A stretch of DNA of 64,000 nt from Tubulanus polymorphus. Lineage: Eukaryota; Nemertea; Palaeonemertea; Tubulaniformes; Tubulanidae. The position numbers and the translations under genes are program-made. Of this stretch, positions 2,568 to 51,749 are shown one piece after another (positions within the stretch are counted from its first letter, which is position 1; the number at the start of each line of letters is the position of its first letter). Location: positions 6,999,175-7,063,174 of the forward strand of contig NC_134032.1 in the NCBI RefSeq assembly GCF_964204645.1. The letters run 5' to 3'. The notes under the pieces were generated by a model, which was not told the origin of the DNA, made no database searches, and saw nothing but the letters and a program-made list of their open reading frames with translations.

Positions 2568-3983
2568 TTAAAATTTAAAATATAATATTCCTCCGATTAC
2601 AATTCCTATACAAGTTATAGCTAATTTAGTATTTTCATGTGATTTATTATCATCATTAGTTTTAATTATATCATGTTGAATAATATCAGTTTTAATATCA
2701 CCGTGTGGGTGCCGTACGGCACCATTTTCTGATGTATTGTAATCTTTTATTTTGGAATCATTAACCAATTTAATATTCTTAGTTTTAGTTTCTGTTGATT
2801 GAATATGTTTTTTATTTTTTTCACCTTCCATTAATTTTGGAGCAGTAATAATCTTTTTATTTATATCATTTAATCCAAATGAATTATTTATTGTTGCAGT
2901 TTTAATTAGATTATTATAACCAATTATATTTCCCATCTTCAATACTAAATCATTAGAAATAATTAATAGATTAGGGCCTATACAATAATTAAGTCTTACA
3001 TGAGATTTATCTAAATAATTTTGATATCTTATAATGTTTTCTGGAATCGATCTATTTTTATCATTATGAATTGAATCTTCAAATAAAACTTTAAATTGTT
3101 TTTGTGTATCGAATGATGTATTCAAATTTCCAATTATCGGTGATCTTGTTTCAACTTGTGATCCTAGAATACATATCAAATAAGTTCTAATAGATTGATT
3201 TATTCTTTCTATACCTGATTTAGTAAAACCTTCACTATTTTCTAAAATAAAATAAACCCAACCATTATTGTTTTCTTGTTTTGAATTATCATAAAATTTT
3301 GGTAATTTATTGAAATATAATGTTTCTAAATCTTTTGTTTCTATTTTACCATAACCTAATTTATTATTATAGATATTATAAAAACTATTAGATGGTATGG
3401 GAAGTGCACAATATTCTGCAATCTTTTTAGGGCAAGGAAGTGATCTTATTGTTCCAATTTTTGTTCTAAAATCAGAATTATTTATATCTATATTAAATTC
3501 ATTACAAATTTTATAAAACTTAGATAAATTAATATTGTTATCTAATTCTTTGAAATACCTAGATCCTGGTAAAGCGCACTCTAATTCATTTAATATTATT
3601 CTGATTTGAAAGTATGTATGAAATCTAAATAAACTTTGAATTAGTTTATATTTAGAATTATTCAAATGATCATTCCAACTAATTCCACATCCTGTTGTTG
3701 CACAATAAACAGCAAAATTTAATTGATTCTGCCAATACTTCATATTAGATTTTAATAACCATTGTTTTTCATCTTTCAATTTTTTAAAATTAATTAAATA
3801 TATATGAAATATATTTTCCATCTTTGCATTAAAATTATTAGTTTCAGTAACATAAATTTCTAAATTAGTTAATGAATCTAAAACTTCATTTCTATATGTA
3901 ATATCTTTATTAAAATCTATTGCTGGAATATTATATTTAATTGATTTATTATATCGGAAAGCTTTTGGAAAACTATCTACCAT
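2568..3983 (-). CDS. Conserved Polinton protein, 471 aa, intact copy
   Basis: The function of this protein is unknown. This is the only intact copy in the window: copy C has a stop codon and copy B is fused to the next gene. The strongest conserved block is AVYCATTGCGISWNDHL at residues ~91-107, followed by a YFQIRIIL-type segment and a LECALPG motif. I recall similar blocks in unnamed proteins of other animal Polintons. The C-terminal ~20 residues (TKLAITCIGIVIGGILYF) form one probable membrane segment. Residues ~423-432 contain a GAVRHPHGDI insert that copy C lacks (see findings). The start is chosen at the ATG after T7 plus TATAAATG. Confidence 0.75.
   Translation of the reverse strand: MVDSFPKAFRYNKSIKYNIPAIDFNKDITYRNEVLDSLTNLEIYVTETNNFNAKMENIFHIYLINFKKLKDEKQWLLKSNMKYWQNQLNFAVYCATTGCGISWNDHLNNSKYKLIQSLFRFHTYFQIRIILNELECALPGSRYFKELDNNINLSKFYKICNEFNIDINNSDFRTKIGTIRSLPCPKKIAEYCALPIPSNSFYNIYNNKLGYGKIETKDLETLYFNKLPKFYDNSKQENNNGWVYFILENSEGFTKSGIERINQSIRTYLICILGSQVETRSPIIGNLNTSFDTQKQFKVLFEDSIHNDKNRSIPENIIRYQNYLDKSHVRLNYCIGPNLLIISNDLVLKMGNIIGYNNLIKTATINNSFGLNDINKKIITAPKLMEGEKNKKHIQSTETKTKNIKLVNDSKIKDYNTSENGAVRHPHGDIKTDIIQHDIIKTNDDNKSHENTKLAITCIGIVIGGILYFKF
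2699..2723 (-). repeat. Palindromic in-frame micro-insert no. 1
   Basis: On the coding strand the sequence is the perfect palindrome GGTGCCGTACGGCACC followed by CACACGGTG. It encodes the GAVRHPHG residues inside the 471-aa protein. Copy C at ~57880-57895 lacks it and reads straight through the flanks. The same core recurs at 34409, 36634 and 51492 in unrelated genes. Confidence 0.85.
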
Positions 3984-4000
3984 TTATATCATTAAAAAAA

Positions 4001-4435
4001 TTAATAATTTATTAATTCTTTTAATAATTTATCTTGTTCTTCAACTGTTATATGACCATTTAAACTTATTATATAATCTAGTGTATTCTTTAATTTATTA
4101 AGTTCTTTTATATTAGTTGTAATTTTTTCTTTATTACTTTTTATATTTAATTTTGAACTTATACCAGTTAAAACACTTGAACTTAATCCTAATACACCAA
4201 TTGATATAGCTAATGGTGTTAATGGACTGAATATTGCTAAAAATGTTATTACAGAACTAATTGTAACCGAACCACTTATAATCAAATAATATATAATTTT
4301 ACTTTTTAAATATTTTTTCTTTTTTATCTTTAAGTCACTTTCAAATTCTAATATTTGTTTTTCTAAATATGTTTTTAATTTAGTTTTATTTATATCATGA
4401 GGAATAATATCAATATTATCAACTTTATCTTCCAT
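4001..4435 (-). CDS. Small two-helix membrane protein, 144 aa
   Basis: The function is unknown. A basic, Lys/Glu-rich N-terminal helix (residues ~18-45) is followed by two hydrophobic segments at ~47-68 and ~71-93, joined by a SPLTP turn, and then by a charged C-terminal helix. This layout predicts a hairpin membrane protein, perhaps of the virion. It is intact in all three copies (also 29746-30180 and 59162-59596), one of the few genes so conserved, which suggests selection during recent mobility. The gap to the 140-aa gene upstream is ~20 bp and holds the T-tract/TAAATG motif. Confidence 0.75.
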   Translation of the reverse strand: MEDKVDNIDIIPHDINKTKLKTYLEKQILEFESDLKIKKKKYLKSKIIYYLIISGSVTISSVITFLAIFSPLTPLAISIGVLGLSSSVLTGISSKLNIKSNKEKITTNIKELNKLKNTLDYIISLNGHITVEEQDKLLKELINY

Positions 4436-4454
4436 TTATTTAGAATAAAAATTA

Positions 4455-4879
4455 CTAATTAGTAAACTTATAAGCAACAAATATAACAATAACAGTTCCA
4501 CCTAAAATCCATATTATTTCATATTTCTGTTGTTCTTTACTTGGGGTATAATAATCTGATAATTTAGGTTTGTATAGATGTAATTTTTCTTTATTTGTTA
4601 CTGCGTTATATAAACTCATTGCATCATCAACTGATTGAAAATCTCTATTTGAAATCTTCTGATCATATAATTCTTTATTGATGTAATCCATATAGTTTTG
4701 TCGTTTTTTTTTCTATATTCTTCTGCAGCTTTATTGTATTTCTCTAACGCTAAGTTATGTCTTCTTTGTTCTCCTAATGAACTATTTTTATCAATATGTT
4801 TAAATAAATAACCACCACCAGTAAATGCTAAAGCGTTAACAATTGCCGATCCTATAATAGTTATAATTGCAGAAGCCAT
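4455..4879 (-). pseudogene. 140-aa membrane protein family, frameshifted
   Basis: Homologous to the intact genes at 29304-29729 and 59616-60038. The N-terminal frame (4879 down to 4616) and C-terminal frame (4691 down to 4455) overlap. The break lies in a run of eight T at ~4707, where copy C has a mixed sequence, so a homopolymer indel or a sequencing error is plausible. The family has a glycine-rich hydrophobic N-terminus (ALAFTGGGYLFKHI), a charged helical middle and a second hydrophobic segment at the C-terminus. Related proteins occur widely in animal Polintons, with no assigned role. Confidence 0.75.
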
Positions 4880-4904
4880 TTATTTAGCAAAAAAAATTAT
4901 GCAT

Positions 4905-5126
4905 TTATATGGGAGGAATATATTTTTGTTTTTCCAAATAATCAATAGTTAAATTAGATAAAGTAACTGCTAATGTTAATTTTAGAATATCATTTATATC
5001 AAATCTATCAACATTAACACTTCCCATTTTGAATACTTTTTTTAATACCATTGAATAACCAACCGTTCCAACTGATAGTAATGCGCCATTATATAATCCA
5101 GTTATTATCCACTTATTATCACTCAT
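4905..5126 (-). CDS. Conserved small Polinton protein, 73 aa
   Basis: A 73-residue protein with unknown function, almost unchanged in copies B and C. It starts with a hydrophobic segment (LYNGALLSVGTVGYSMVLKK, ~11-30), then an amphipathic part with DINDILKLTLAVTLSNLTIDYL. Its start codon follows directly on the stop codon of the upstream gene (TAA then ATG), so that stop doubles as the TAA of the TAAATG start motif. Short proteins of this kind are a recurring part of the Polinton virion gene block. A membrane or minor virion role is inferred only from this. Confidence 0.75.
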   Translation of the reverse strand: MSDNKWIITGLYNGALLSVGTVGYSMVLKKVFKMGSVNVDRFDINDILKLTLAVTLSNLTIDYLEKQKYIPPI

Positions 5127-5468
5127 TTATTTATCAAAAAAATTACTATCATCAAAATATTTAGTTAACTTATTTATGATTAATTCAACATTTATTTCAT
5201 TACTAGTTTTATGATTATCATATATTTTGGTTAATATGTTTTTAATATCATCAATAATTCCATCTTCATTTAATTCATAATATTCTAAAGGTGATTTAAT
5301 TAAATCAATTACTTTTTCTATATTATAATTTTCTTTATCAATCATTGATGCATTGTTAAATGATTTACTTTTTATATCAGTAATTACATCATTTAGTTTA
5401 ATTCTCATTTCTTTACCATGTTTAAAATCAAACCCAAAACATATACTCGGTCCAACAGTTATATTCAT
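5127..5468 (-). CDS. Conserved Polinton protein, 113 aa, unknown
   Basis: I do not recognise the fold. The N-terminus (TVGPSICFGFDFKHGKEMRI) is strongly conserved in all three copies. The remainder is an acidic, Asn/Lys-rich helical stretch that has diverged, especially in copy B where a stop interrupts it. There is no membrane segment. It lies directly upstream of the 73-aa gene with zero spacing and downstream of the 253-aa candidate penton, so both may be expressed with the virion genes. It is intact here and at 60285-60626. Confidence 0.7.
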   Translation of the reverse strand: MNITVGPSICFGFDFKHGKEMRIKLNDVITDIKSKSFNNASMIDKENYNIEKVIDLIKSPLEYYELNEDGIIDDIKNILTKIYDNHKTSNEINVELIINKLTKYFDDSNFFDK

Positions 5469-5484
5469 TTATATAGTGAAAAAA

Positions 5485-6246
5485 TTACTCTTTACATCTT
5501 ATAACTAATTCATAAATTACAGGAAAGTTATTCAAATCAATTAAGTATCCATTATGATTTCTAATTTCTAATCTAAAATTATTAAAACTAGGAATGCATG
5601 GTTTGAAATCACATTCTGTTAAATTATAATTTATTTGCGTTCCAAATTCTTTAACATTCTTCAATGGTAAAATGTTTAGTAAACCAGAATTACAAGTTAT
5701 ATCTTTAGTTGCTTCGAATGTTTTTGTAGGATCAATTAAATTGCAATAAATATAAAAATGTGTGTAAGGTATTAAGTTTGGTGTAGTAGCGTCAATATTT
5801 GTAAAAGATCTATCTGGAAGAATTCCTAACAGTTTAGCTATAGGTTTTTTTACCATAAGTTTATGTTTTTCACTATTATACAACCTTATCTTTATTCTAT
5901 CAGAACTCTCACTGTTTAAAAATCTAATACTAAACCCAGAACTACTACCTAATTTGTGCCAGGCTTTTCTATTAATTTCTTGTGATAATGTATCTAAATT
6001 ATATAACCCTGGTTTTAAATATATATAGACCCATTCATTTTTATTTTTATTAAAAACTAAAAAGACTCTATGTTCAATAGACTTATCCGATACATTGTAA
6101 AAAGAATTACATAAACTTATATTTACTAATTTTAAATCTACACAATTCTTAAATTCTCTATCTAATTGTACTAATAAATTATGTGATTTATAATTTGTAA
6201 GTTTTCTAGAATCAACAAATATTCTGTATTCTTTTAATTCCACCAT
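5485..6246 (-). CDS. Candidate minor capsid (penton-like) protein, 253 aa
   Basis: A soluble, beta-rich 253-aa protein with no membrane segment. The N-terminal YRIFVDSRKLTNYKSHNLLV block, the following DLKLVNISLCNSFYNVSD strand pattern and the C-terminal FRLEIRNHNGYLIDLNN are conserved in all copies. Size, predicted beta content and position in the virion block fit the single jelly-roll minor capsid (penton) protein that Polintons encode beside the major capsid. This is an inference from context and recalled family features, because no diagnostic catalytic motif exists for such proteins. It is intact here and in copy C (60644-61405) and broken in copy B. Confidence 0.55.
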   Translation of the reverse strand: MVELKEYRIFVDSRKLTNYKSHNLLVQLDREFKNCVDLKLVNISLCNSFYNVSDKSIEHRVFLVFNKNKNEWVYIYLKPGLYNLDTLSQEINRKAWHKLGSSSGFSIRFLNSESSDRIKIRLYNSEKHKLMVKKPIAKLLGILPDRSFTNIDATTPNLIPYTHFYIYCNLIDPTKTFEATKDITCNSGLLNILPLKNVKEFGTQINYNLTECDFKPCIPSFNNFRLEIRNHNGYLIDLNNFPVIYELVIRCKE

Positions 6247-6270
6247 TTATTTTACATATTTTCTTATTCG
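6247..6270 (-). promoter_or_regulatory. Class II start motif of 253-aa gene
   Basis: On the minus strand the sequence before the start codon reads AATAAGAAAATATGTAAAATAA then ATG. The A-rich ATATGTA-type motif differs from the T-tract type seen at most structural genes. Related motifs precede the OB-like, PolB, zinc-finger and HNH genes. Confidence 0.45.
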
Positions 6271-6605
6271 AAATCTATTTCATGGTGCCCTTTTTCATTC
6301 TTACCTTTGTATACGAAATAGAAATCTCCAGAATATAATTCTTCTAGATCTTCACTTGATAATCTATGAAATCTATCTGGTAAATAAGTTCTGAATTTAT
6401 ATTTATTTCCTTTTAATCCTTCATATTCTAAATGAATTACTAATTTATCTCCATATTTATTAGTAATTGTTTCAATGTTAGTAATTAAATATTTCTTGTG
6501 AATTGTTAACTCAGTTAACTTTTTGAATTTATAATCTACAGATTTGACGCTTGAAGTATCTTTAATTCTATCTAAGAATTCACTGTGTACTTGTTTACTC
6601 TCCAT
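6264..6605 (-). CDS. Putative OB-fold ssDNA-binding-like protein, 113 aa
   Basis: A small protein directly downstream of PolB, with only ~28 bp between them. The pattern KKYLITNIETITNKYGDKLV, then a beta strand (VIHLEYEG), then KFRTYLPDRFHRL and a closing FYFVYKG strand, looks like the strand order of OB-fold nucleic-acid-binding modules found next to polymerases in viruses and transposons. Most of its length is predicted beta with a central basic turn. I propose a single-stranded DNA binding role in element replication. That is inference from strand pattern and neighbour, since no family-defining residue proves it. It is intact in all three copies. Confidence 0.5.
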   Translation of the reverse strand: MESKQVHSEFLDRIKDTSSVKSVDYKFKKLTELTIHKKYLITNIETITNKYGDKLVIHLEYEGLKGNKYKFRTYLPDRFHRLSSEDLEELYSGDFYFVYKGKNEKGHHEIDFE

Positions 6606-6630
6606 TTGTTATACAAATTTTTATTGAAAT
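6606..6630 (-). promoter_or_regulatory. Class II start motif of OB-like gene
   Basis: Read on the minus strand: CAATAAAAATTTGTATAACAA then ATG. Copies B (27563-27583) and C show AATAAAAATATGTATTATAA or a close variant at the same place. The motif contains AATAAA, so a polyadenylation signal for the upstream PolB transcript is an alternative reading. Confidence 0.45.
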
Positions 6631-6633
6631 TGA

Positions 6634-9600
6634 TTAACACGCTAGAATCCTTTTCATAATCTCATTTTCTTTTGTTTCTTCTCTTTTGAATTTTATATAT
6701 TCATCTAAATTGCAACCATAGGCGACTGTGTGGATTCCATCATCTAAAATATATCTTTTATCATCAAATGGGTTTAGACTTATCTTCTCTATCTCTTCAA
6801 TATACATTTCATGATCTTCAGATCTTAAACATTTCATCTTATGTTTTCTAACTTCTTCATTAAATATACAATTGATGTAATCTTTGAAATGAATATTCTT
6901 TTCAACAACGCTTTTGGTAATTCCTTTTAACTTTTTAGCTTCATGTTCTTTAGTTTTATATGAATACATTTTAGATCTAATACCAATGAACTCTATCATT
7001 TCTTCACCACCTAATTCATCTTTGAATTTACCGGGAACTTTTTTATTATCATTGCTAAACAATTCATGATTTTTAGGATAGTTACTGAAATCAAAATGGT
7101 GTTTTAATGTTTTTAAATCATCAGTTATGTTATCAGTTTTTATCTTTAATATGTAAGAATCTGTATCAAAGTATAGAATTTCTATGTGTTTTTCTCCAAA
7201 ATGGGGTTGTAATATGTTATAGTAAAATTTATACATTAATAACTTTGATAATTCTAAAACCGATGCACCAACATAAATAGGTTTATTGAACTTCATAGAA
7301 GTTCCCCTCATTTTAACTGCTGCTAAATTTTCATCAAATATTCTGTTACCTATAAACTTAGGATATGATTGTAAATGCCTTATCCTTTTACCATTACTAA
7401 CTAACTCAATATCATTTCTATTTCTTATGTTTTCACAAGTCTTACCATAGAATGCATTATTCATTAGTTTGAAGAAATCTTTCTCGAAATCAGTTTTAGC
7501 TTCAGTTCTCTGTGTAGTATTAAAATCTATATATTTTTCTAACCATTTAGATTGACTGAATGAAATATATCTATGTACTTTTTTTAATATCATTCCTTGA
7601 TTCAAATAAAACTTCAACATTCTATAATGTACTACATAATTATATTTATCTTCTTGAGTTACCATTAACTTTTCTGTATGAATATGATTTTCGGGTTTAA
7701 TTCTTTTTTGGTAATTTGATAATTCTTCATGAGTTACAGTTTTATGTTCGGGACAGTAAGCTAGATTTCTAGATTTGAATTTAATATTTTCAGGGTATTC
7801 TAAATCTACAACGAAGAAGTAACCAGTATCTGAATCATCTGCAATATCTAGAATTCTATTCTTCCAATCAAATTTATCAATTTGTAAAACTTCAGTTATT
7901 TCAAACATCCCATAAGGTTGTGGTTCCATCATTGCCCAACCATAAAGATTATTTGCATCTATGTATAATAATTTATATCCAGGATTATCATTTACATTGA
8001 AATATCTATCACCTAATACACCTGAAACACCTCCTCTTATAGATTTTTCAAATAATAGTAATTGATCTATATTTGTTAACAAATCCATTTTTATATCTGT
8101 AAATTTTAATCCACAATCCCATGTTAATCCTGGTGATGAATAACAATGACAAGGATCAATATTGAAATATTTTAGGTTTACATCTCTAAACCTTTCGAAT
8201 ATATCGGTTAATAATAATACATCTGATTTTAAATATAAATCTACTAATTGCCCATGATTTGTTATTTTGAAATGATTCCAAATATTCAATGTTCTATTAT
8301 AGACTTCATCTTTAACATATTCATTTTTTAATTCATCATAGAATTGTTCTTTCAATAATTCAGTTATTTTAAAATCATTATGATTTTTATAGAAAGAATA
8401 TGGAATAGCGCCTTTATATCTCATTAATTGAAAATCATCATTATTTGGGTAATATTCTTTTAATATCTTTAATTCATCATCAACCAATGATTTTGATAGA
8501 TTGTCTAATGAACTACTTAAAAATCTATATGAATCTATAAATCTTAGACAACCAAATTGGAATGATATATAATTCTCAGATGTTTTAGCTAACATTCTAA
8601 ATTTATAAGTTGGTATTTTATCTTTTGATCTATTTGAATTTAATATTTCTATTTCATTATTAATTTCTTCTATTTTATGACATAACTGTTTGATAAATAA
8701 ATGTGCATCATATCCTGATAGATTATGAAATATAACTGGTACAAAGTTAATTTTCTTAGCTTGTAAGTTACAATTCTCATGTGCAGCGCCTCTAAACTTT
8801 CCATTCAAATGATCATGGTCTCTTACTTTTTTATCTTTATAATTAAATATCTTTTCACAATAATAACATTTATCTGCAAACTCAAATTCTTCTTTATCTT
8901 CTTCTGTCATAATTATTTCTTTATTTGTATTCAATAATTTACTAAATCTTATTTCATATTCAATTAATAAGTCACAAAAATGATTGATAACATTTTCATT
9001 TCTATAATTATAATATTCACTTTCGATTAGTTCTGGATAATTAGATTTAATATATAACCCGAAAGCTGCAGCTGATTGATGAATCTTTTTAATTGTATTT
9101 GTTATTGGTGGTTCATCAGAAAAATCATTTTCATTAAAATTTAATTTCTTTCTTTTATAATATATTTCTTTTCTATCTTGATCAGTTAGTTCTTTATTTA
9201 ATGATTCAAAATCTCCATATATTACAAATGGTACTTTATTTTTGTAATCATATTTTTTGAATTCTAATATTTTATCCTTTTCATTTGGTAAAACTAATTT
9301 ACAATAATCATGATTATCACATAGTTGTTTATGATTTAATAATGTACTTTCATTACTAAATTTATGTAAACATTTTCTACATAGATATATTTTATTATGG
9401 TGATCACTTTCTGTTCTAAAAAATAAATCTATTTGTTTAATCCACATATAATGATTCTCATAATATAGTATATCTATAACATCATTTGAATCATAATCTT
9501 TTGATAGGTATAAAGGTTCTAATGTATAATGTTTAATATTATTTCCTTTTGTATTTGGTAATTTGATTAAATCAAATACATTTATCTTTATATTATTATC

Positions 9601-10668
9601 TCTTTCTATTTTTGGGATGTTTTTAATTCTAACAGGATACTTATCTATCTTATAATTATTTTCAAATTGTTTATAATGAGTTAATCTAAAACTATGTTGT
9701 TTATAATCTTCAACTGGGTGTAAACAACTTATTATAGCCCATAGAAAACATTTTTTATCAAAATTTTGTATGTTTATTACTGCTTTTGTTGTAAATGGTA
9801 ATTTAATATAACTTGTTCCATTTATACTATCATCTTTATAATATGATAAATTATTTTCATCAATTGGTTTTGATTTAGTTAACTTATTATATTTTGTGTT
9901 ATAAACATGTAAAGTTATAAATATTATCTCATCAAATATTAAACCAGATCCTTCAAAATATTTCTCTTCTATTTTAGTTTTTACTTCATTATAACATTTA
10001 TCTAATTTATCATCTATATGTTGTTTAGATATAATATGTTGTGAATGAGAATTTATATTATATATTGGTTTATCTTCAGATTTTATAAACTTTACTTTAA
10101 CTGATATACTAATTTTAGGATATTCAACATCTGTAATTATTTTTATTATTTCTTTCATATTTTCTAAATGTTTTTTATTTTCTTCTATTGTTTTACTTTT
10201 ATGAAATTTAAACTCGATAGCTGCTGGACCAATATCACTTTTAAATGCTTCGGTTATCTCTATATCTTTTTTATTATCTAATGAATTAATATAATTTCTT
10301 ACATCTTCCATGTATGGTCTTTTATTGTTTAATTTATTTTTTATGCTTTTAATTATCTTCTGTTTCTTATCGTTATCATTATCAAAATAATCTTCACCTA
10401 AAATATCATTATTCTTATTTCTAATATGACTTATAGATTTTAAATGTTCATTATAATATCTTTTATCACTGAATGATTGATTACATGTATCACATTTATA
10501 TGTTTCTTTTTCATTCTTTAATTCTTCTAATTTAGTTTCTAATATATCATCTTCATATTCTAGTTTCAATTTATTCTCTAAATGTGTTCTAGTTTTATTG
10601 TGTCTTGCTTTTTGGGATTTATCTATATCGATATTACATGTTGGGCAGTAGTACTTATTTGCTTCCAT
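6634..10668 (-). CDS. Protein-primed family B DNA polymerase (Polinton PolB), intact
   Basis: A 1344-aa polymerase expected to replicate the element DNA from a terminal protein. The N-terminus has two C2H2 zinc fingers (YYCPTCN at ~7 and YKCDTCN at ~57), and a third Cys/His finger lies at ~430. Exonuclease motif I is GDFES at ~485-489. A treble-clef segment with CYYC (~600) and DHDHLNGKFRGAAHENCNL follows, then NLSGYDAHLF as an Exo II-like motif. The polymerase motifs are YIDANNLYGWAM (~900), the KLMNNAFYGKTCE block and YFDTDSY (~1166). All catalytic aspartates are present and the frame has no stop, unlike copies B and C. Length and domain order match the protein-primed Polinton polymerases. 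The start is at the first ATG after the terminal repeat. Confidence 0.95.
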   Translation of the reverse strand: MEANKYYCPTCNIDIDKSQKARHNKTRTHLENKLKLEYEDDILETKLEELKNEKETYKCDTCNQSFSDKRYYNEHLKSISHIRNKNNDILGEDYFDNDNDKKQKIIKSIKNKLNNKRPYMEDVRNYINSLDNKKDIEITEAFKSDIGPAAIEFKFHKSKTIEENKKHLENMKEIIKIITDVEYPKISISVKVKFIKSEDKPIYNINSHSQHIISKQHIDDKLDKCYNEVKTKIEEKYFEGSGLIFDEIIFITLHVYNTKYNKLTKSKPIDENNLSYYKDDSINGTSYIKLPFTTKAVINIQNFDKKCFLWAIISCLHPVEDYKQHSFRLTHYKQFENNYKIDKYPVRIKNIPKIERDNNIKINVFDLIKLPNTKGNNIKHYTLEPLYLSKDYDSNDVIDILYYENHYMWIKQIDLFFRTESDHHNKIYLCRKCLHKFSNESTLLNHKQLCDNHDYCKLVLPNEKDKILEFKKYDYKNKVPFVIYGDFESLNKELTDQDRKEIYYKRKKLNFNENDFSDEPPITNTIKKIHQSAAAFGLYIKSNYPELIESEYYNYRNENVINHFCDLLIEYEIRFSKLLNTNKEIIMTEEDKEEFEFADKCYYCEKIFNYKDKKVRDHDHLNGKFRGAAHENCNLQAKKINFVPVIFHNLSGYDAHLFIKQLCHKIEEINNEIEILNSNRSKDKIPTYKFRMLAKTSENYISFQFGCLRFIDSYRFLSSSLDNLSKSLVDDELKILKEYYPNNDDFQLMRYKGAIPYSFYKNHNDFKITELLKEQFYDELKNEYVKDEVYNRTLNIWNHFKITNHGQLVDLYLKSDVLLLTDIFERFRDVNLKYFNIDPCHCYSSPGLTWDCGLKFTDIKMDLLTNIDQLLLFEKSIRGGVSGVLGDRYFNVNDNPGYKLLYIDANNLYGWAMMEPQPYGMFEITEVLQIDKFDWKNRILDIADDSDTGYFFVVDLEYPENIKFKSRNLAYCPEHKTVTHEELSNYQKRIKPENHIHTEKLMVTQEDKYNYVVHYRMLKFYLNQGMILKKVHRYISFSQSKWLEKYIDFNTTQRTEAKTDFEKDFFKLMNNAFYGKTCENIRNRNDIELVSNGKRIRHLQSYPKFIGNRIFDENLAAVKMRGTSMKFNKPIYVGASVLELSKLLMYKFYYNILQPHFGEKHIEILYFDTDSYILKIKTDNITDDLKTLKHHFDFSNYPKNHELFSNDNKKVPGKFKDELGGEEMIEFIGIRSKMYSYKTKEHEAKKLKGITKSVVEKNIHFKDYINCIFNEEVRKHKMKCLRSEDHEMYIEEIEKISLNPFDDKRYILDDGIHTVAYGCNLDEYIKFKREETKENEIMKRILAC

Positions 10669-10689
10669 TTTAATACTATATTTTTTATT

Positions 10690-11016
10690 AAAATTGATTT
10701 TAGAAGTTCAATGATTTAAATGTTATTCATATATATGAATATTTTAAGAGTAATAGGGATAATAGGCTTTCAAGCTAAAGGTTGAACGGGCGGGTGAGTA
10801 AAAATGAAAAACATAAAAATAATTACAATTTCTACTTGAATTAGGAGTGAAACTCATAAAAATGAAAAATTAATTCGAGCGTGTGAGAATTAATTTTTCA
10901 TTTTTATGAGTTTCGCGAGTAATTCAAGTAGAAATTGTAATTATTTTTATGTTTTTTCATTTTTTACGAGCTCGACCGTTCGACCTTTGGCTTGAAAGCC
11001 TATTATCCCTATTACT
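10690..11016. repeat. Right terminal inverted repeat of copy A with palindromic end
   Basis: The inner part (10690-10748) is shared with the PolB-side ends of B and C and contains the palindrome ATTCATATATATGAAT. The outer 268 bp (10749-11016) form a near-perfect palindrome: it starts AGTAATAGGGATAATAGG, ends with the reverse complement, and turns around at ~10880. The palindrome core differs entirely from the one in copies B and C, although its outermost ~50 bp are alike. Confidence 0.85.
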
Positions 11017-14488: not shown

Positions 14489-17400
14489 TGTATGCGACAA
14501 ATAAGGAAAATACAGTTAATTTCCCTGTTTTCGGCTTAAATTTGAAGTAGGTGAAAACCTGTTTTCTTTGAATTGAAGTCACGGGAACCACTTAACCTCA
14601 TTTTCAAGCCGGCTTAGAATTGGCGATGTCGTGTTATTATGTCATTGATTTGCACAAAACGGACACCAGTATAATCAAATTCCCATCCTCGATGGCAAGC
14701 GTTTCCAACAACCCAGCAACAGTGAGTTCCGGGAACTCCTTTTGACATGGAATGTCGGAAACGAAGCCTTCGATAAATTCCCGTCTTTCTAATGGCCCAA
14801 TAGGGTCAAATACCGTGATTTACGGATCTGAGAGTTAACGCGGCATTAAAAATTCTAAACCTGCCAGGCAATCGAATTTAAAAACTAGAAAATAAAGAAA
14901 AACTCCCAAAAAAACTATTCTATCTTATATATTACTATTGTTAAGTCCATTACATATAAACCTAAATTGAAACCTCATTAATCAGTGGGTTGTACACTAT
15001 TATCTTTATGATATATTATAATAATCGAAATTTTAAGTTCCAAAACCTGAAACAAAGTTCCCGTAACTATGAAAGTCACAATTATTATAGGGAAGTTACT
15101 TTATCAAATTCTGATAAAGTTACTGTAACAGTAGGCCATGATGGGCGTCAGGAAATAAACAGTCAATCTTTACTACAATGCTGCATTAGTGCTTTGACTA
15201 TTAATATAAATCTCCAACAATAATCTATCGCGATGCTCGCACAAATACCCGTGCCTAAATCCGTATTATCGGGGTATTAAAATGGTCTGATCGCTTTTGT
15301 TTTATATGGCGAATTTATCGATTTCAATCGAAAAATATACCCTAAGCAATTGTTTCTGAAGTATACTTCAGAAACAATATTGTTTATTATTCTCAATTAT
15401 CATTTGATCACTGTCACCTAGAGTTGATAAACAAGGTTCTGAAATAGTAATTCTGATCATAGATCATTTTAGAAACCCGTGGATAATATTTTTCACAACG
15501 GTGTTGAGGAATATGTGTATGTAAAATCAGTGAATTAATGCTAAATAGAAATTATTCATTTTCACGTGACCTTAATTAGCCAATGGTCTAATTCTATGGA
15601 CTGAGTTTCGAATCTAATCAACAACTCGTACTCCTCGAATCAAAATGTCCTCAAGTTATCAATCCTTAAAATGATTCGTGTGCTTCGCTAGCTCAGTACA
15701 CTTTGAAGGGATTACTGTCGATCATCTAGTGCTCAGTAGAAATAGTCAAATCATTATATGTTTTTCTTAATCAAGATGAGAATCATCGATTAACATGTTA
15801 TGAAATTCAATTTGGAAGGGCGAGATTTTCATGTGGCGGATTATTACCCGTTACCCGGATAGACTCACGCTTATCAATCAACAACCGTATTAATGCGTCA
15901 CAAATACACATTCAAAATATATCAGAAAATTTCGTAGACCTGCAATGGGCCCGATAACTAAATTATGTGTATCAATGTATATCATATTTTGTATTATTAA
16001 TCTATATATACAATGTTTGAATTTGAAGGTCAGTATTTGCCTAAAGATGTTCATTGCACATTTTAGACATCATCGTTATTGATAGTGTGGTTTTCCTTTT
16101 TTCTTGCAAGATCTGAAACGAACTGCAGAGATGTATTCGAATTTTCGTAAGTCCATTTTAATTTTAAAGCAGAGTAGCGAATATTGGATCCCGTTGACTA
16201 TTGACCTCCTCAGTTGTTTTTGTTATAGCGTGCTCATGGTGCAACTATGGCGATATCCTCTTGTTTTTGTATAAGGTAACGGGCTTCAATAGAAATGGCC
16301 CAATTTATTTTGGGATGGATTAAAACTAAGTATTCTTGAGCGCTCTTGAGAGCGGCTGAACGATCGTGAACATTAGCAACCCTATAGTTTATACAGTGAG
16401 ACCACCACCTACAGTGTCTCCTATGCGATCTGTATGTAGGTTCATTAGCATAGATTCATCAAATACTGGTTGGACACATGAAAAAATAATTTCTTTACTA
16501 GAATTTAGGGTGTAGGAGTCAGCACTTCAGACCCTATTTTTCATACACTAGTTTTCATTACCGATTATTTCAATCTGTGTCGCAATAGACTTATCGTTTT
16601 CACTATTATGTTAACCATAGCGTGCCTTTATAGTCTATGTGTTAATATTAACTTTCGGACTATTTATTCGTTGAAATCGAGAGCAGAAAATACAGTCAAT
16701 ATGGCTCAGTTATTTCAGAATTTCAAAGTAGGCCTATATAATGACGACGCTAAAAGCCCCAGATCGTTGCTTGCTGTTCAGGTTGAATGGAATTGTTTAC
16801 TGAACTGGAATTTCCTAACGGGATTTTTTATATAAACTGAAGTCTTTTTTTCAAATCCTATAAGTTAATTCTTCAACTGGATGTAATTATATTTCGTCAG
16901 TAATAGAATTCCAGAGCAGACATCAAACCAATACGTCGACCTACCAATAAAAGATGAAACTTGCTTTAACTAGTAATTACTAATTATTATCTTACCTACC
17001 TACATTATAGATATTATTGAAGTTTTCAGTAAAAAAGCCATAACAGAATTCACATTACATGAACCACTACCACAAAATAAGCTTTTCGTCTTATTCCCAA
17101 AGGCACTGGTTCAACACAAATCAGTTATCTATTTTTTACTAGCATGCAAGGCAAAACATTCAAATGTTCTTTGATATATTCTAAATGTATTCTTGATTGC
17201 TTTTATTTCTATTAACGGAATTAATGGAAAGTTGTTTAGCTGAATCACAGTATCGTCTCGCAACTGGATCTTTTATGGCACAGGGTATTATACCTTTTTC
17301 CACTTTCGGGTTATTTTCAAAGTGATTCACAATACACGAGCGGATCTATTGATGTATGATAGTGATGGTGATCGAATTCTAATTTAAGATAATCATGATA

Positions 17401-20718: not shown

Positions 20719-20724
20719 AGTGTT
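20719..20724. repeat. 6-bp target-site duplication AGTGTT, left copy
   Basis: AGTGTT directly precedes the terminal AGTAATAGGGG of copy B and recurs at 39356-39361 directly after the other end. Six-base duplications are characteristic of Polinton/Maverick integration. Confidence 0.9.
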
Positions 20725-33668: not shown

Positions 33669-33700
33669 AATTTTAACTTTAATAAAAATATATATAATAA

Positions 33701-36773: not shown

Positions 36774-36779
36774 CTTATT

Positions 36780-37758: not shown

Positions 37759-38059
37759 TTATATTAGAGAAAAAAAGCAAAAAAAATATTATAAGTATTT
37801 TTCAAATGATACTAGTATCTCTTTGGGTTAATACTAGTTAGTTAAAGGTAAAGAATTTTAGTATTAGTTATTGTTTTTTTAGTATTTTTTATTTGTGATA
37901 TAAAGTATTCTTTTTGAAAAGAAAGTATTAAAAAAAACAATAACTAATACTAGCTAGTTGAAGATATGTAATTTTTAATACATTTTATTTGAATTCTATT
38001 TGATATCTCACTACTTTTGTTTATCTATTAGGAGCAGTAATTATAACTGTCCAGATAAG
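37759..38059. promoter_or_regulatory. Intergenic region with hairpin before 198-aa gene
   Basis: An imperfect inverted repeat of ~28-bp arms, TAGTATTAGTTATTGTTTTT at 37860 and its complement ending ~37952, encloses ~37 bp. Copy C keeps related sequence at 50640-50700 but only one full arm. It may be a transcription end for HNH or a promoter-linked structure. I see no gene. Confidence 0.5.
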
Positions 38060-38737
38060 TCATTTCGGATCCTTGATATCAAATTCCTCAACATATTGTT
38101 CATTATTTGGATCATTGTTCCATTGATCAATAAATTTCTTTGCCTTTGTTAACTGTTCTAAATATAACTGTAAATCTAGTTTATTAGATTTGATTTGATT
38201 TTCTTTCTTTTCTAAAGGCCTTAAATTTTTCCAACCCCAAATAAGTTTTTTATTGTATTCATCATTCATGTTAAATTTAGATATTGGTAACACGTGATCA
38301 ATATGGTAATAATCCCCATAATTATCTATATTCATTTTATCATCGAATTGAAATATAATCCATGATTTGAGAAATTCATCTGAACAACCCAATAAATTAG
38401 ATAGTGTTTCTGAATGTGTTTCTTTGTTGAATAATCGTGTTAATCTAGATCTTAAGCATTGTTTCAATCTAAAATTAAGATCTGTTTGATATCTTTCTCT
38501 CATATATTCTGCCATATAATAATTAAAATGTTCTATATTATCTTCTCGGTATTGTTTGGTATATAGTTTAGTACAAGTTTTACAGCAATATTGAAAACCA
38601 TCTTTGCTAATCTTACGCTTATTAAATTCTGTTATAGCTAATTTATCTAATTCACATTTAGAACACATCTTGTAGTATATATTTTTGACGCCAGTGTTAT
38701 TTGTAATATTGATAGTTTGTGGTTGTTCTGATTCCAT
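38060..38737 (-). CDS. HNH endonuclease, 225 aa (copy B)
   Basis: A zinc-ribbon-like N-terminus (CSKC at ~25-28 and CCKTC at ~51-55) is followed by a basic helical region and an HNH nuclease core: YHIDHVLPIS at ~144-153, then WKNLRPLEKKENQIKSNKL. The His-Asp-His of the core and the downstream Asn are present, so the nuclease could be active. Enzymes of this type occur in phages and virophages and may act in replication, homing or host DNA cutting. It is the outermost gene beside the right terminal repeat, with a class II motif before its ATG. The homologue is at 49860-50525. Confidence 0.85.
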   Translation of the reverse strand: MESEQPQTINITNNTGVKNIYYKMCSKCELDKLAITEFNKRKISKDGFQYCCKTCTKLYTKQYREDNIEHFNYYMAEYMRERYQTDLNFRLKQCLRSRLTRLFNKETHSETLSNLLGCSDEFLKSWIIFQFDDKMNIDNYGDYYHIDHVLPISKFNMNDEYNKKLIWGWKNLRPLEKKENQIKSNKLDLQLYLEQLTKAKKFIDQWNNDPNNEQYVEEFDIKDPK

Positions 38738-38757
38738 TTATTATACATATTTTTTTA

Positions 38758-39355
38758 CTAAATTGATTTTAGAAGTTCAATGATTTATATCATGCATTAT
38801 TTCAATCACACTTTACTAACACTTTTAATGTTTAAAAATCTAACTCATACAAATATGAATGTTGAAATAATGTTGTAAATAAATACTTTTATATTGAATA
38901 ATCTGTCAATTTAAATGTTATTCATGTACATGATTATTTTAAGAGTAATAGGGGTAATGGGCTTTCATATCAAAGGTATGGTCGAGTTCATTAAAAACAA
39001 ATATTAAAAGTAATTTAAAACTATAATATATTATATTCATAACCGTGTGTATTTCAGTTGAATAATAGAATAATTATTATTATTAAAATATATTTGATTA
39101 TATGAATTTGTGTATTGTAAATAAATCAATTGGTCGCGGAGCGGAGCGGTAGCGAAGTGGAGTTTATTTTGAAGTTTATTTTTTTAATATAATATGCTTT
39201 TTAAATTATTGATATCTTAGAATAAATATTTAGTTATAATATAAAATACACACGGTTACGAAAATATATTATAGTTTTAAATTACTTATAATGTTTTGTT
39301 TTTAATGAACTCGACCGTTCGACCTTAGGTATGAAAGCCTATTACCCCTATTACT
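38758..39355. repeat. Right terminal inverted repeat of copy B
   Basis: Inverse of 22918-23493. The outer part (38944-39355) is itself palindromic, with AGTAATAGGGG at the inner end and its complement at the outer end. The central loop differs from the left end: GGTCGCGGAGCGGAGCGGTAG is followed by extra AT-rich sequence, so the loop is inverted or rearranged relative to the left terminus. Confidence 0.88.
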
Positions 39356-45920: not shown

Positions 45921-48236
45921 ATTTTGGTTTTGTCGCCCGCGACAATTCATTATTTTGGTTTTATCGCCCGCGACATTTCATTATTTTGGTTTTATCGCCC
46001 GCGAAATTCATTAATTTGGTTTGGTCACCCGCGACAAATATATATTGGTTTTGTCGCCCACGAAAATTCAATATTTTGGTTTTATCGCCCGCGACAATTC
46101 ATTATATTGGTTTTATCGCCCGCGCCAATTCATTTTTTTTTGTCGCGGTTATATCGCCTGCGACAATTCAATATTTTGGTTATATCGCCAGCGACAATTC
46201 ATTATTTTGGTTTTATCGCCCGCCGCAATTCATTATTTTGGTTTTTTCGCCGGCGAAAATTCATTAGTTTGGTTTTGTCACCTGCGACAATTCATTATTT
46301 TGGTTTTATCGCCCGCGACAATTCATTATTTTGGTTTTATCGCCCGCGACAATTTTTTTTTATCGCAGTTTTATCGCCTGCGACAATTCAATATTTTGGT
46401 TTTATCGCCAGTGACAATTCAATATTTTGGTTTTATCGCCAGTGACAATTCATTATTTTGGTTTTATCGCCCGCGACAATTCATTATTTTGGTTTTATCG
46501 CCCGCGACAATTCATTAGTTTGGTTTTGTCGCCCGTGACAATTCAATATTTTGGTTTTGTCGCCCGCGACAATTCATTACTTTGGTTTTGTCTCCCGTGA
46601 CAATTCAATATTTTGGTTTTATCGCCTGCGACAATTCAATATTTTGGTTTTATCGCCCGCGATAATTCATTATTTTGGTTTTATCGCCCGCGACAATGAA
46701 ATATTTTGTTTTTATCGCCCGCGACAATTCATTATTTTGGTTTTGTCGCCCGCGACAATTCATTATTTTGGTTTTATCGCCCGCGACAATTCAATATTTT
46801 GGTTTTCATGCCCGCGACAATTCATTATTTTGGTTTTATCGCCCTCGACAATTCAATATTTTGCTTTTATCGCCCGCGATAATTCATTATTTTGGTTTTA
46901 TCGCCCGCGACAATTCATTACTTTGGTTTTGTCCCCTGGACAATTCACCATTTTGGTTTTGTCGCCAGCTACAATTCATTGTTTTGGTTTTGTCGCCCCA
47001 ACAATTCTTTTTTTGGTTTTGTCGCCCGCGACAATTCATTACTTTGGTTTTATCTCCAGCGACAATTCATTATTTTGATTTGGTCACCTGCGACAAATAT
47101 ATATTGGTTTTGTCGCCCACGAAAATTCAATATTTTGGTTTTATCGCCCGCGACAATTCATTATATTGGTTTTATCGCCCGCGCCAATTCATTTTTTTTT
47201 GTCGCGGTTATATCGCCTGCGACAATTCAATATTTTGGTTATATCGCGAGCGACAATTCATTATTTTGGTTTTATCGCCCGCCACAATTCATTATTTTGG
47301 TTTTTTCGCCGGCGAAAATTCATTAGTTTGGTTTTGTCACCTGCGACAATTCATTATTTTGGTTTTATCGCCCGCGACAATTTTTTTTTTGTCGCGGTTT
47401 TATCGCCTGCGACAATTCAATATTTTGGTTTTATCGCCCGCGACAATTCAATATTTAGCTTTTATCGCCCGCGATAATTCATTATTTTGGTTTTATCGCC
47501 CGCGACAATTCATTACTTTGGTTTTGTCCCCTGGACAATTCACCATTTTGGTTTTGTCGCCAGCTACAATTCATTGTTTTGGTTTTGTCGCCCCAACAAT
47601 TCTTTTTTTGGTTTTGTCGCCCGCGACAATTCATTACTTTGGTTTTATCTCCAGCGACAATTCATTATTTTGGTTTTATATTTTGTTTTTGTCACCCGCG
47701 ACAATTTTTTTTCTTGGTTTTGTCGCCTGCGACAATTCAATATTTTGGTTTTGTCGCCCGCGACAATTCATTATTTTGGTTTTATGGCCCGCAACAATTC
47801 AATATTTTGGTTTTATCGCCCGCGATAATTCATTATTTTGGTTTTATCGCCCGCGACAATTCATTATTTTAGTTTTGTCACCCGAGACAATTCAATATTT
47901 TGGTTTTATCGCCCACGACAATTCATTACTTTGGTTTTATCTCCAGCAACAATTCATTATTTTGATTTTGTCGCCCGCGACAATTCTTCTTTTTGGTTTT
48001 ATCACCCGCGAAAATTCATTATTTTGGTTTTGTCGCCCGCGGCAATTCATTATTTTTTAGTTTTGTCGCACGTGATAATTCAATATTTTGTTTTTGTTGC
48101 CCGAGACAATTCATTATTTTGGTTTTATCGCCCGCGACAATTCAATATTTTTGTTTTATCGCCCGCGACAATTCAATATTTTGGTTTTATCACCCGCGAC
48201 AATTCATTAGTTTGGTTTTGTCGCCCGCAACAATTC
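45921..48236. repeat. 31-bp minisatellite, about 75 units
   Basis: Consensus unit TTTTGGTTTTATCGCCCGCG plus ACAATTCATTA. The G/C-rich part GTCGCCCGCGAC is a short inverted repeat. Units vary at ATC/GTC, CATT/CAAT and ACT/ATT positions. Larger blocks are duplicated: ~330 bp at 46022 recurs at 47081 (offset 1059), and ~200 bp at 46880 recurs at 47475 (offset 595). The array lacks stop codons on the plus strand over long distances in all three frames, which is a property of the unit and not evidence for protein. Confidence 0.95.
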
Positions 48237-49033: not shown

Positions 49034-49529
49034 AGTAATAGGGGTTTAGTTGTTTCATACCAAAGGTCGAAAGGTCGAGCCCATTAAAAAACAAAATATT
49101 AAAAGTAATTAAAAAACTATAATATATTTTCATAACCGCGTGCATTTTATATCAAAACTAAATATTTATTCTAAGATATCAATAATATAAAAAGCATATT
49201 GTATTAAATCAATTGGTCGCTCCACTTCGCTACCGCTCCGCTCCGCGACCAATTGATTTAATTACAATACACAAATTCAAATAATCAAATATATTCAAAT
49301 GATAATAATTATTCTATTATTCTATTATTCAACTGAAATGCACGCGGTTATGAAAATATATTATAGTTTTTTAATTACTTTTAATATATGTTATTAATGA
49401 ACTCGATCATTAAACCTTTGATATGAAACAACTAAACCCCTATTACTCTTAAAATATTCATATATATATGAATAACATTTAAATCATTGAACTTCTAAAA
49501 TCAATTTTAATAAAAAATATAGTATTAAA
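49034..49529 (+). repeat. Left terminal repeat of copy C with palindromic end
   Basis: The outer 49034-49453 begin AGTAATAGGGG and end with its complement, around an inner inverted repeat (AAATCAATTGGTCGC) and loop CTCCACTTCGCTACCGCTCC. The repeat then continues through ATTCATATATATGAAT into the upstream sequence of polB and even its first codons, so it extends further inward than in copy B. Confidence 0.85.
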
Positions 49530-49781
49530 ATGGAAGCAAATAAGTACTACTGCCCAACATGTAATATCGATATAGATAAATCCCAAAAAGCAAGACACAA
49601 TAAAACTAAAACACATTTAGAGAATAAATTGAAACTAGAATATTTACAGTTATATTCAGAACAGTTAACAAAAGCAAAGAAATTTATTGAATTATGGAAT
49701 AATGATCCAAATAATGAACAATACGTTGAGGAATTTGATATCAAGGAATCGAAACAACTTATCAAAAGCAGCGAGGAATGA
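49530..49781 (+). other. Chimeric mini-ORF: polB N-terminus joined to HNH C-terminus
   Basis: An 83-codon open frame. Residues 1-38 equal the start of polB, including the first zinc finger (YYCPTCNIDID). At residue ~39 it switches to the HNH gene tail (LQLYSEQLTKAKKFIELWNN ... EEFDIKESK), followed by 9 extra residues. The complete HNH gene follows 78 bp later but lacks this native tail. The structure suggests that a longer terminal repeat was copied from the polB end onto this end. A functional product is doubtful. Confidence 0.8.
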
Positions 49782-49859
49782 AAAAGGATGATGTTGGTCG
49801 AAGAAATGGAAGAGGATTATAAAATACTAACCAATTTAGTAAAAAAATACGTATAATAA

Positions 49860-50525
49860 ATGGAACCAGAACAACCACAAACTATCAATATTACAAATAA
49901 CACTGGCGTTATAAACATATATTACAAGAAGTGTTCTAAATGTGAATTAAATAAATCATTAACAGAATTTAGTAAGCGTAAGATTAGCAAAGATGGTTTT
50001 CAATATTACTGTAAAACTTGCATTAAACTATATACCAAACAATATCGAGAAGATAATAGAGAATCTTATAATGATTATATGACAGAATATATGAGAGGAA
50101 GATATCAAACAGATCTTAATTTTAGATTGAAACAATGTTTACGGTCTAGATTAACACAATTATTCAACAAAGAAACACATTCAGAAACACTATCTAATTT
50201 ATTGGGTTGTTCAGATGAATTTCTCAAATCATGGATAATATATCAATTCGATGATAAAATGAATATAAATAATTATGGGGATTATTACCATATTGATCAC
50301 GTGTTACCAATATCTAAATTTAACATGAACGATGAATACAATAAAAAACTTATTTGGAATTGGAAAAATTTAAGACCTTTAGAAAAGAAAGAAAATCAAA
50401 CCAAATCTAATAAACTAGATTTACAATTATATTTAGAACAGTTAATAAAAGTAAAGAAATTCATTGAATTATGGAACAATAATCCAAATAATGAACAATA
50501 TGTTGGGTCTTTAATGAAAGGTTGA
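49860..50525 (+). CDS. HNH endonuclease, 221 aa (copy C)
   Basis: Homologue of 38060-38737, with both Cys pairs (CSKC, YCKTC) and the HNH core YHIDHVLPIS and WKNLRPLEKKENQ intact. The last residues (GSLMKG) replace the EEFDIKDPK tail of copy B. That tail instead sits in the chimeric mini-ORF upstream, so the 3' end has been exchanged or rearranged. The ATG follows TAGTAAAAAAATACGTATAA then TAAATG, a class II motif. Confidence 0.85.
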   Translation: MEPEQPQTINITNNTGVINIYYKKCSKCELNKSLTEFSKRKISKDGFQYYCKTCIKLYTKQYREDNRESYNDYMTEYMRGRYQTDLNFRLKQCLRSRLTQLFNKETHSETLSNLLGCSDEFLKSWIIYQFDDKMNINNYGDYYHIDHVLPISKFNMNDEYNKKLIWNWKNLRPLEKKENQTKSNKLDLQLYLEQLIKVKKFIELWNNNPNNEQYVGSLMKG

Positions 50526-50749
50526 AGATTAATATATCTCAAATAAAATATAATAAAAATTAAATACCTTCAACTAGCTTGTGAATTCTATTATATTTTT
50601 AATATTTTCTTTTCAAAAAAGAATACTTTATATCACAAATAAAAAATACTAAAAAAACAATAACTAATACTAGAATTCTTTAACTTTAACTAGCTAGTAT
50701 CATTTTATAATACTTATAATACTATTCTTATTAAATTTCTCTAATATAA
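50526..50749. other. Intergenic region before 202-aa gene
   Basis: AT-rich. It contains AAAAAACAATAACTAATACTAG, which forms one arm of the hairpin seen at 37860-37952 in copy B. The start motif TTTCTCTAATATAAATG ends it. No gene is seen. Confidence 0.5.
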
Positions 50750-51358
50750 ATGTCAAAGAAATCTAATAAGAATAGTATTGATATTGAAAAAACATTAGAT
50801 GATTTAGGTATTAGTGATAATAAAGATACAGTTGTTTCTAATTCTATTCAAGTTAATAACAATATAGATTATGAATACTATTTATATTGTAAGCATCATC
50901 TAGAACTATTGATTGCGAGTGGAAAAACTAAAGAGTTTATTGGTAAAACAATAACTTTTCAAGAATTAGATAATATGAATAAAGAAAAAGTAATAAAATA
51001 TTTTAAGATTTATGAAGAGGCAAGATTATCTAAAATAAATGATTCTATTTCGAATGGTATTGTCAAATGTTATTCTAAGTTATGTAACCAGTTAATATCA
51101 ATTGATGATGAAAATAAATTATATAATGATTTGAAAAATGACTATTTAGTTATGACTGAATTACAAAAATGGGTCGGTTATGCTTCATTTCAATTAGGAT
51201 CGGTTATGACATTGATTTCTACTGGCGTCATAACATTTTCGAACATCAAACCTATGGAATATAAATCAGGTAAGAACGAAACAGATGACGCTGTACTACA
51301 ACCAAACGTCGAAACAGAAAATGAATCAGAACAGAAATTAACTAAAATAAATGAGTGA
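50750..51358 (+). CDS. Conserved Polinton protein, 202 aa (copy C)
   Basis: Intact homologue of 37162-37758, with a helical charged body, a hydrophobic stretch LGSVMTLISTGVITF and an acidic tail. A few residues are inserted near residue 65 (GKTITFQEL) relative to copy B. The stop overlaps the next start by 8 bp (AAATGAGTGA type). No function is recognised. Confidence 0.65.
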   Translation: MSKKSNKNSIDIEKTLDDLGISDNKDTVVSNSIQVNNNIDYEYYLYCKHHLELLIASGKTKEFIGKTITFQELDNMNKEKVIKYFKIYEEARLSKINDSISNGIVKCYSKLCNQLISIDDENKLYNDLKNDYLVMTELQKWVGYASFQLGSVMTLISTGVITFSNIKPMEYKSGKNETDDAVLQPNVETENESEQKLTKINE

Positions 51359-51746
51359 TAGCGTTAAGAAGAAGCCTAGATCCGAGAAACAAATTATATG
51401 GGCAAGAGAATTAGGTAAAAGATCTTCAGAATTAAAAAAAGCTAAGAAAAAGAAATTAACTGATATAAATGAATCACAGACTTTATCTGATGTAGCCGTA
51501 CGGCACCCACACGGTGGTATTGATTCAAATAATAATCCATCTAATTCTTCTAATGCTGGAAGTAATTATAAATTATATATTACAATTGGATTAGTAACAG
51601 TTATTATATTATCTGGTGTAATATATAAATCAAAATTCAAATCTGATGATAAAGATGATTCCAATGACAATAAACCTATCATACCCGAAAATAAGTCAAA
51701 TCATAAATCAAATGAAAATAAATCTAAAATATTATTAATGGATTAA
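51351..51746 (+). CDS. Single-pass membrane protein, 131 aa (copy C)
   Basis: Homologue of 36780-37169. It has a basic N-terminus, a membrane segment LYITIGLVTVIILSGVIY at ~76-93 and a Lys/Asp/Asn tail. It carries the micro-insert reading AVRHPHGGI in its linker (residues ~48-56), which copy B lacks in this gene. It ends 3 bp before the integrase start. Its function is unknown. Confidence 0.65.
   Translation: MSDSVKKKPRSEKQIIWARELGKRSSELKKAKKKKLTDINESQTLSDVAVRHPHGGIDSNNNPSNSSNAGSNYKLYITIGLVTVIILSGVIYKSKFKSDDKDDSNDNKPIIPENKSNHKSNENKSKILLMD
51492..51516 (+). repeat. Palindromic in-frame micro-insert no. 4
   Basis: GTAGCCGTACGGCACC then CACACGGTG, reading VAVRHPHGG in the linker of the membrane protein. 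Copy B has DIDSINN where this copy has the insert between DV and IDSNNN. Confidence 0.85.
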
Positions 51747-51749
51747 AAT

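Follow-up and report, generated by a model that had tools for sequence, protein, structure and literature searches.

Polinton transposons in the genome of the nemertean Tubulanus polymorphus carry a 25-bp palindromic element, here designated E, that is found at no fewer than eight points in and beside their genes. E was picked out in a 64,000-nucleotide stretch of contig NC_134032.1 (positions 6,999,175 to 7,063,174; hereafter the window), a 64-kb piece of the 267.8-Mb assembly GCF_964204645.1 (77 contigs), where a first-pass annotation took it for a tiny mobile palindrome. That description is upheld by the work presented here. The mobility of E in the evolutionary sense is well supported, because it occupies eight points, because clean empty alleles exist at most of these, because homologous proteins lack the insert and because the points share a target motif. 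E is probably best read as a mobile 27-bp micro-insert that lives on a Polinton family, has spread by copying guided by microhomology or by insertion at specific sites, and is kept where the peptide that it encodes is tolerated.

E and its copies in the window

The core of E consists of GGTGCCGTACGGCACC followed by CACACGGTG, that is, the palindrome GGTGCC-GTAC-GGCACC and a short tail. The unit gained at an insertion point is 27 bp long, GGTGCC-GTAC-GGCACC-CACAC-GGTG plus two further bases (mostly AT, but GT at the point designated site 4). GGTG thus forms a direct repeat at the two ends of E, complementary to the CACC that lies between them. With a GC content of 72% (18/25), against a local background of 24-28%, E fits the picture of a GC-rich palindromic insert in AT-rich DNA.

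Three Polinton copies lie in the window, referred to as A, B and C, and E is found in four of their genes. Site 1a (2699-2723, minus strand) lies in a 471-aa gene of copy A (2568-3983, minus strand; no Pfam match), 5′ of the stretch encoding a C-terminal hydrophobic segment, and reads SEN[GAVRHPHGD]IKTD. Site 2 (34409-34433, plus strand) falls in a 321-aa gene of copy B that we call zinc-finger-like on the strength of a C2H2-like pattern seen by eye, there being no Pfam zinc-finger match to this gene. Site 3 (36634-36658, minus strand) lies in the N-terminal part of the copy B integrase, ahead of the rve core, with an extra GGTGAT before E; this integrase is decayed, an in-frame stop lying 5′ of the insert. 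Site 4 (51492-51516, plus strand) is in a 131-aa membrane protein gene of copy C (51351-51746, plus strand).

Most of what the first-pass annotation reported of these four places stands. The 25-mer is present at each, with 0, 3, 2 and 2 mismatches, and the maximum number of occurrences in 100 dinucleotide shuffles was 0. All four copies have the same orientation and share one frame, their translations being NGAVRHPHGDIK, NGDVWHPHGDIV, GDGAVWHPHGGIK and DVAVRHPHGGID. The description of the 16-bp palindrome as perfect holds for the 2699-2723 copy only; the other three depart from it by 2, 1 and 2 bases. Sister copies that lack the insert and are otherwise collinear were confirmed in the three cases claimed. 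The copy C integrase (51750-52838, plus strand; Pfam rve above the cut-off, chromodomain below it) reads SDKE-K-IKY at empty site 3 (51858-51860, plus strand) and the copy B membrane protein reads LSD|IDS at empty site 4 (37037-37038, minus strand), both positions being counted from the translation. Empty site 1a in copy C (57884-57885, minus strand) was placed by inference, 2724-3023 being collinear with 57885-58184. Inspection by eye shows no such collinearity between the window's two zinc-finger-like genes; empty alleles of site 2 are present elsewhere in the genome.

Genome-wide distribution

E is not confined to these four places. A search of the assembly with the 21-base core CCGTACGGCACCCACACGGTG gave 534 matches at up to 3 mismatches, compared with 1 for the reversed control, and copies are present on all of contigs C1-C12, E being located on multi-megabase contigs. 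From the window and from fetched loci L001-L213 we read 226 distinct copies that differ from the 25-mer at no more than 7 positions (224 of them at no more than 6); the sample comprises 97 of the 98 listed exact 21-mer copies, from all large contigs, together with variants mainly on C1-C4. Every one of the 226 lies in a Polinton context and in sense orientation.

Assigned by at least 8 shared 8-base words with a site prototype, the copies fall at site 1 in the 471-aa gene (62), site 2 in the zinc-finger-like gene (27), site 3 in the integrase (67), site 4 in the middle of the membrane protein (36), site 5 behind an HNH-like gene (20), site 6 in a 202-aa gene (11, including decayed and mosaic forms) and site 7 at the start of the membrane protein gene (3; L071, L076 and L077). 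An alternative count method gave 26, 68 and 9 for sites 2, 3 and 6. Site 1 comprises two points, 1b lying 15 bases downstream of 1a; 1b is filled alone in L022, L036, L039 and L181, and both are filled in L031, L034, L035 and L037. This makes eight insertion points in all, of which seven are coding (two in the 471-aa gene, two in the membrane protein and one each in the zinc-finger-like gene, the integrase and the 202-aa gene) and one, site 5, is noncoding in the frame concerned. More complex arrangements are a 42-bp tandem duplication at site 1 in L028 and a truncated E followed by a full E in L069.

Searches for unusual flanks recovered only variants of known sites (7 matches with Y as the next base, 9 with a second base other than T, 4 with a third base other than A), and no match in the genome had a base other than T before GGTG. 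Outside this genome, the core, exact except for R/Y at its CpGs, was absent from viral_contigs and from genome_contigs (the latter holding one genome per prokaryote species), and searching viral_contigs with the integrase gave no confirmed relative.

Empty alleles and the direction of change

To identify empty alleles, junctions were predicted by omitting 27 bp from filled sequences and then sought in the genome. At site 2 the predicted junction was found 47 times exactly and 145 times within 3 mismatches (control 13), and at site 1a it was found 817 times within 3 mismatches (control 0). Three empty examples fetched for each of these two sites are collinear on both sides. At site 4, 25 of 60 rows are empty and 35 filled, overlapping loci being left unmerged. 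The 817 near matches of the E-free 471-aa junction, whose listed places on C1-C4 are mostly mid-contig, also indicate that the Polinton family has many hundreds of copies.

Homologous proteins likewise lack the nine residues. This is the case for the tails of 471-aa protein homologues P0001-P0007 (for example SEN-IKTD in P0001) and for the N-termini of integrase homologues P0121-P0125 (for example DN-KKIKY in P0121), and HPH occurs in 0 of the 240 homologues listed out of the 332 (471-aa protein) and 2792 (integrase) found in public sequence sets.

A tree of 33 copies was built with E masked, 12 of its 29 inner branches being unresolved. Nine site 4 inserts fall in a single clade of ten rows (support 100/100), the tenth of which, L072, has a short remnant, and the site 7 inserts fall in one small clade together with L068. 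With each site scored as filled or empty, the tree requires at least 6 changes for site 3, 4 for site 5 (on 21 rows), 2 for site 4, 1 for site 6 (on 32 rows) and 1 for site 7. Scar-like forms are seen in L071 (GGTAAT at site 3) and in L072 (GGT at site 4).

Target motif and flanks

Empty alleles often show the motif RAT|ATH, seen in GAAAATATT (1a), GATAATATTC (1b, in copies such as L002), GAAAATATA (2), GAAAATATAAA (3, in L068), TGATATTGA (4), GAGATATC (5) and GATGATATTAAG (7); empties bearing RATATH are also written as GAAAATATTA and GAAAATATAG. Its frequency is about 1.1% of positions on each strand. Insertion of the 27-bp unit converts a RATATH target into RAT-E-ATATH, and 205 of 210 copies have RAT to the left of E. 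AT flanks E on both sides at most points; at site 4 the bases after E are GT in 36/36 copies read. This constancy favours arrival of the extra AT with the insert, or an early mutation, and a 27-bp unit without target duplication fits the flanks equally well.

Site 6, in the C-terminal tail of the 202-aa gene (50750-51358, plus strand, in copy C), is a special case. Most copies of this gene that we saw have GAT(GACGCT)GTACTACAACCAAACG.. there, and the resident sequence in copy C (51287-51311, plus strand) agrees with E (in the GGTGCCATACGG form) at 16 of 25 bases on a count by eye. E replaces the resident sequence in L068 and L075, with the length of the longer form and with matching neighbours, whilst L071, L076 and L077 are mosaics, E-like on the left and resident on the right. 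In a diverged Polinton subfamily (L186, L187, L190 and L191) the site reads GAT-E-ATATT. Either the resident sequence is an old E that has eroded or E arose from a sequence of this kind; the tails of 202-aa protein homologues are variable and do not decide the matter.

Reading frame, coding status and sequence variation

All seven coding points share one frame, giving GAVRHPHGD. Of 450 cases of RATATH in 21 coding sequences of the window (among which one gene may be present in several copies), 107 are in sense phase 0; insertion in sense phase 1 (77 cases) would give a TGA stop, so that phase 0 accounts for 107 of 373 stop-free options. The chance of seven out of seven coding points falling in phase 0, site 3 being counted as one point, is about 1.6e-4, and target choice alone is therefore insufficient to explain the shared frame. 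The simplest further factor to assume is that linkers and tails tolerate GAVRHPHGD.

Of 193 coding-site copies of E, 192 keep the frame open; some flanks have stops in decayed copies. Site 5 is different: it follows the stop codon of the HNH-like gene at a distance of about 55 bases (measured in L021), and in-frame stops are found upstream of it in 17/17 copies. The window copies of this site are not filled; the 221-aa gene in copy C (49860-50525, plus strand) owes its name to an HNH_4 match below the cut-off (E-value 0.034). The earlier proposal that the insert is tolerated as peptide consequently fits the seven coding points, but E is not strictly coding.

Most variation in E falls at CpGs, and R to W and V to I changes are frequent in the peptide. 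CpG variants were tallied in the first 100 of 308 places of a pattern that is independent of CpG state, from which the GATG forms of site 4 escape. T is found at position 21 in 16/16 copies at site 2 and in 16/17 at site 5, all CpGs are kept in 19/27 copies at site 1, site 3 is mixed and A is found at position 11 in 5/7 copies at site 4. Since the sites differ in this way, E seems to have spread through few founding insertions, which were later inherited and amplified with the Polintons. Loop-side CpG changes are commoner than stem-side ones in these places, a difference from which shared ancestry precludes inferring selection on the hairpin stem. Conservation inside E is in any case biased by the choice of most loci for their match to E; 25 copies, including three site 6 mosaics, were not so picked.

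Mode of spread and alternative explanations

How might such an element move? E would have spread by copying, without a transposase of its own, most likely through hairpin-initiated template switching during Polinton DNA synthesis, with joining via the short RAT and ATAT stretches that flank resident copies. Selection would remove insertions in conserved domains or in other frames, leaving survivors in linkers, tails and one out-of-frame stretch, and slippage between the terminal GGTG repeats may have removed some copies, with short scars left behind.

Several observations weigh against this reading. Neither an enzyme nor an intermediate was seen. Five of the eight empty site 3 rows (one a repeated locus) read GAAAAAATAAAAT and so lack RATATH; among the printed empty forms of site 7 the motif is found only in L068, L186 and L190; and no clean empty allele was seen at site 6. 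A true target duplication is left unproven by the constant GT at site 4. Sites 3 and 5 are patchy on the incompletely resolved tree, which may reflect recombination, repeated insertion, loss or tree error. The 31-base E element alone folds no better than many shuffles (z-scores of -1.2 as DNA and -1.4 as RNA; -2.2 and -1.3 for a variant); a 66-base context at site 1a reaches -2.6 as RNA, partly via pairing of the flanks. Finally, the 226 copies are not a random sample, some 310 others being unread.

The main competitor, which we consider unlikely but deserving of attention, is that E is a non-autonomous transposon, or a site-specific element, which a recombinase or nuclease such as the HNH-like protein mobilises, with ATAT as target and AT duplicated. 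The RATATH target and the AT on both sides at most points would suit an enzyme, as would the location of site 5 directly behind the HNH-like gene and the discrete, derived gain at site 4; however, every site 4 copy read has GT rather than AT, and the HNH assignment itself falls below the Pfam cut-off. At 25 bp, moreover, E is far below the size of elements with transposase-bound ends, which also counts against an enzyme. It is less likely still that E is an RNA or DNA control element, a hairpin in the sense transcript or a protein-binding site, that benefits the Polinton. Such a role would account for E lying in sense at each of the eight points, site 5 included, and the RNA fold of E has a predicted energy of -11.4 kcal/mol, but the near-empty junctions of site 1a alone (817) exceed all E copies (534) and the fold of E on its own is unremarkable against shuffles. 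No Rfam match was found within the window at the gathering threshold, so E is not a known RNA family there.

Two further explanations fare worse. That GAVRHPHGD is selected as a peptide module, for example a metal-binding or processing motif, with the likeness in DNA a by-product, would explain the single frame and sense orientation at seven coding points. We judge it very unlikely, given that site 5 lies outside an open frame with stops upstream, that the peptide often varies (R to W, V to I) and that the homologues inspected manage without E; convergence on the peptide alone was rejected on the evidence of the site 5 copies. Least credible of all is that E was ancestral at all sites and cleanly lost from the empties, or is an assembly artefact. 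The scar-like losses in L071 and L072 speak for it, but the homologues inspected are empty, the site 4 insert is limited to one clade and E is present on C1-C12 with site-specific variants. An ancestral insert lost many times was accordingly rejected, the homologues being empty and site 4 a single-clade gain.

Polintons of the window

The limits of the three Polinton copies were estimated from repeats shared between them. Copy A (1-10721; end approximate) is cut by the start of the window, copy B spans 21003-39336 (limits approximate, the ends themselves not being resolved) and copy C (49336-64000; start approximate) is cut by the end of the window. Their GC content is 22-27%, against 32-43% for the DNA between them, and the CpG observed/expected ratio is 0.46-0.59 in Polinton parts, compared with 1.02 and 1.35 in two intervening stretches. 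Pfam identifies an rve integrase, a family B polymerase and an A32-like ATPase in the copies, with a chromodomain and an HNH nuclease below the cut-off, and parts of a Pao retrotransposon between them. A 1344-aa protein of copy A (6634-10668) has an endonuclease VII-like match at residues 588-636 that is also just below the cut-off.

The strongest GC peaks (0.72) of the AT-rich parts are E and a second GC-rich stretch, CAATTGGTCGC...GCGACCAATTG, found near Polinton ends at 20899-20942, 23092-23135, 39123-39166 and 49210-49259. At the left end of copy B, 20390-21435 and 22583-23628 are 99-100% identical and 2193 bp apart, forming a tandem duplication. Between copies A and B lie inverted 405-bp arms that are 100% complementary (15698-16102 and 19025-19429), and between B and C a 31-bp tandem repeat of about 74 copies (45921-48236).

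Relation to known elements

The first-pass annotation likened E to the Rickettsia palindromic elements (RPEs), a likeness that is apt for behaviour but not for membership. According to the accessible part of their description, RPEs are bacterial palindromic repeats of 105-146 bp with long stem-loops that lie in frame in many protein genes and also between genes, and one RPE-bearing gene is translated into an active product (PMC2229807). E resembles them in being inserted in frame in several unrelated genes that have empty homologues, and in occurring between genes as well. It differs in its 25-bp core and 6-bp stem, its RATATH target and its residence in a eukaryotic virus-like transposon; the core occurs in 0 genome_contigs stretches, a result that concerns E itself, RPE sequences not having been compared.

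The GC clusters of yeast mitochondria, as far as the available portion of PMC4464245 describes them, are 30-80 bp long, form several classes and typically lie in non-coding organelle sequence. They share with E the build of a GC-rich palindrome in AT-rich surroundings and a variable presence, with empty and filled alleles; E differs in forming one class, mostly genic, in nuclear Polintons (a comparison that does not extend to the M1-M4 consensus). Hairpin elements are also dispersed in the mitochondria of sponges, yeast and Allomyces, those of Allomyces without flanking duplications and with RNA-mediated copying suggested (PMC2800124); unlike E, they are organellar and mostly intergenic, and the part of that account available to us describes no in-frame habit. 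In Magnusiomyces mitochondria, short bypassed inserts are reported at 81 positions of coding genes (PMC5009743, consulted in part). These disrupt frames and are compensated in translation, whereas E adds 27 bp, neither breaks the frame nor carries internal stops and stays open. Nor does E have the parts of its carrier: the Polinton (Maverick) brings an integrase, a family B polymerase and an A32-like ATPase, of which its passenger has none. As regards DNA transposons and miniature inverted-repeat transposable elements (MITEs), with terminal inverted repeats bound by a transposase, E is a short palindrome in its own right, to which no transposase could be linked.

By analogy, E appears to work like RPEs and yeast mitochondrial GC clusters whilst belonging to neither. 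A search of titles and abstract openings, which took in few subscription papers, showed, among the papers listed, no description of a palindromic in-frame insert in a Polinton or Maverick. Protein-coding palindromic inserts have been described in bacteria and organelles, and their mode of spread is largely open. In its most ambitious form, which is possible and which we put forward tentatively, the proposal is that E is a 25-bp hairpin parasitising Polintons, copied into RATATH sites when these replicate and selected to one peptide frame. In the eukaryotic nucleus it would then parallel what RPEs are in Rickettsia and GC clusters are in mitochondria, and no smaller insert that spreads itself would be known to us from a eukaryotic mobile element.

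Significance

Here a virus-like transposon has a passenger of just 25 bp. With hundreds of filled and empty alleles at eight points in one genome, target choice, gain, loss and selection on frame become directly measurable. E also illustrates a route by which near-identical nine-residue segments can come to be present in unrelated proteins without homology.

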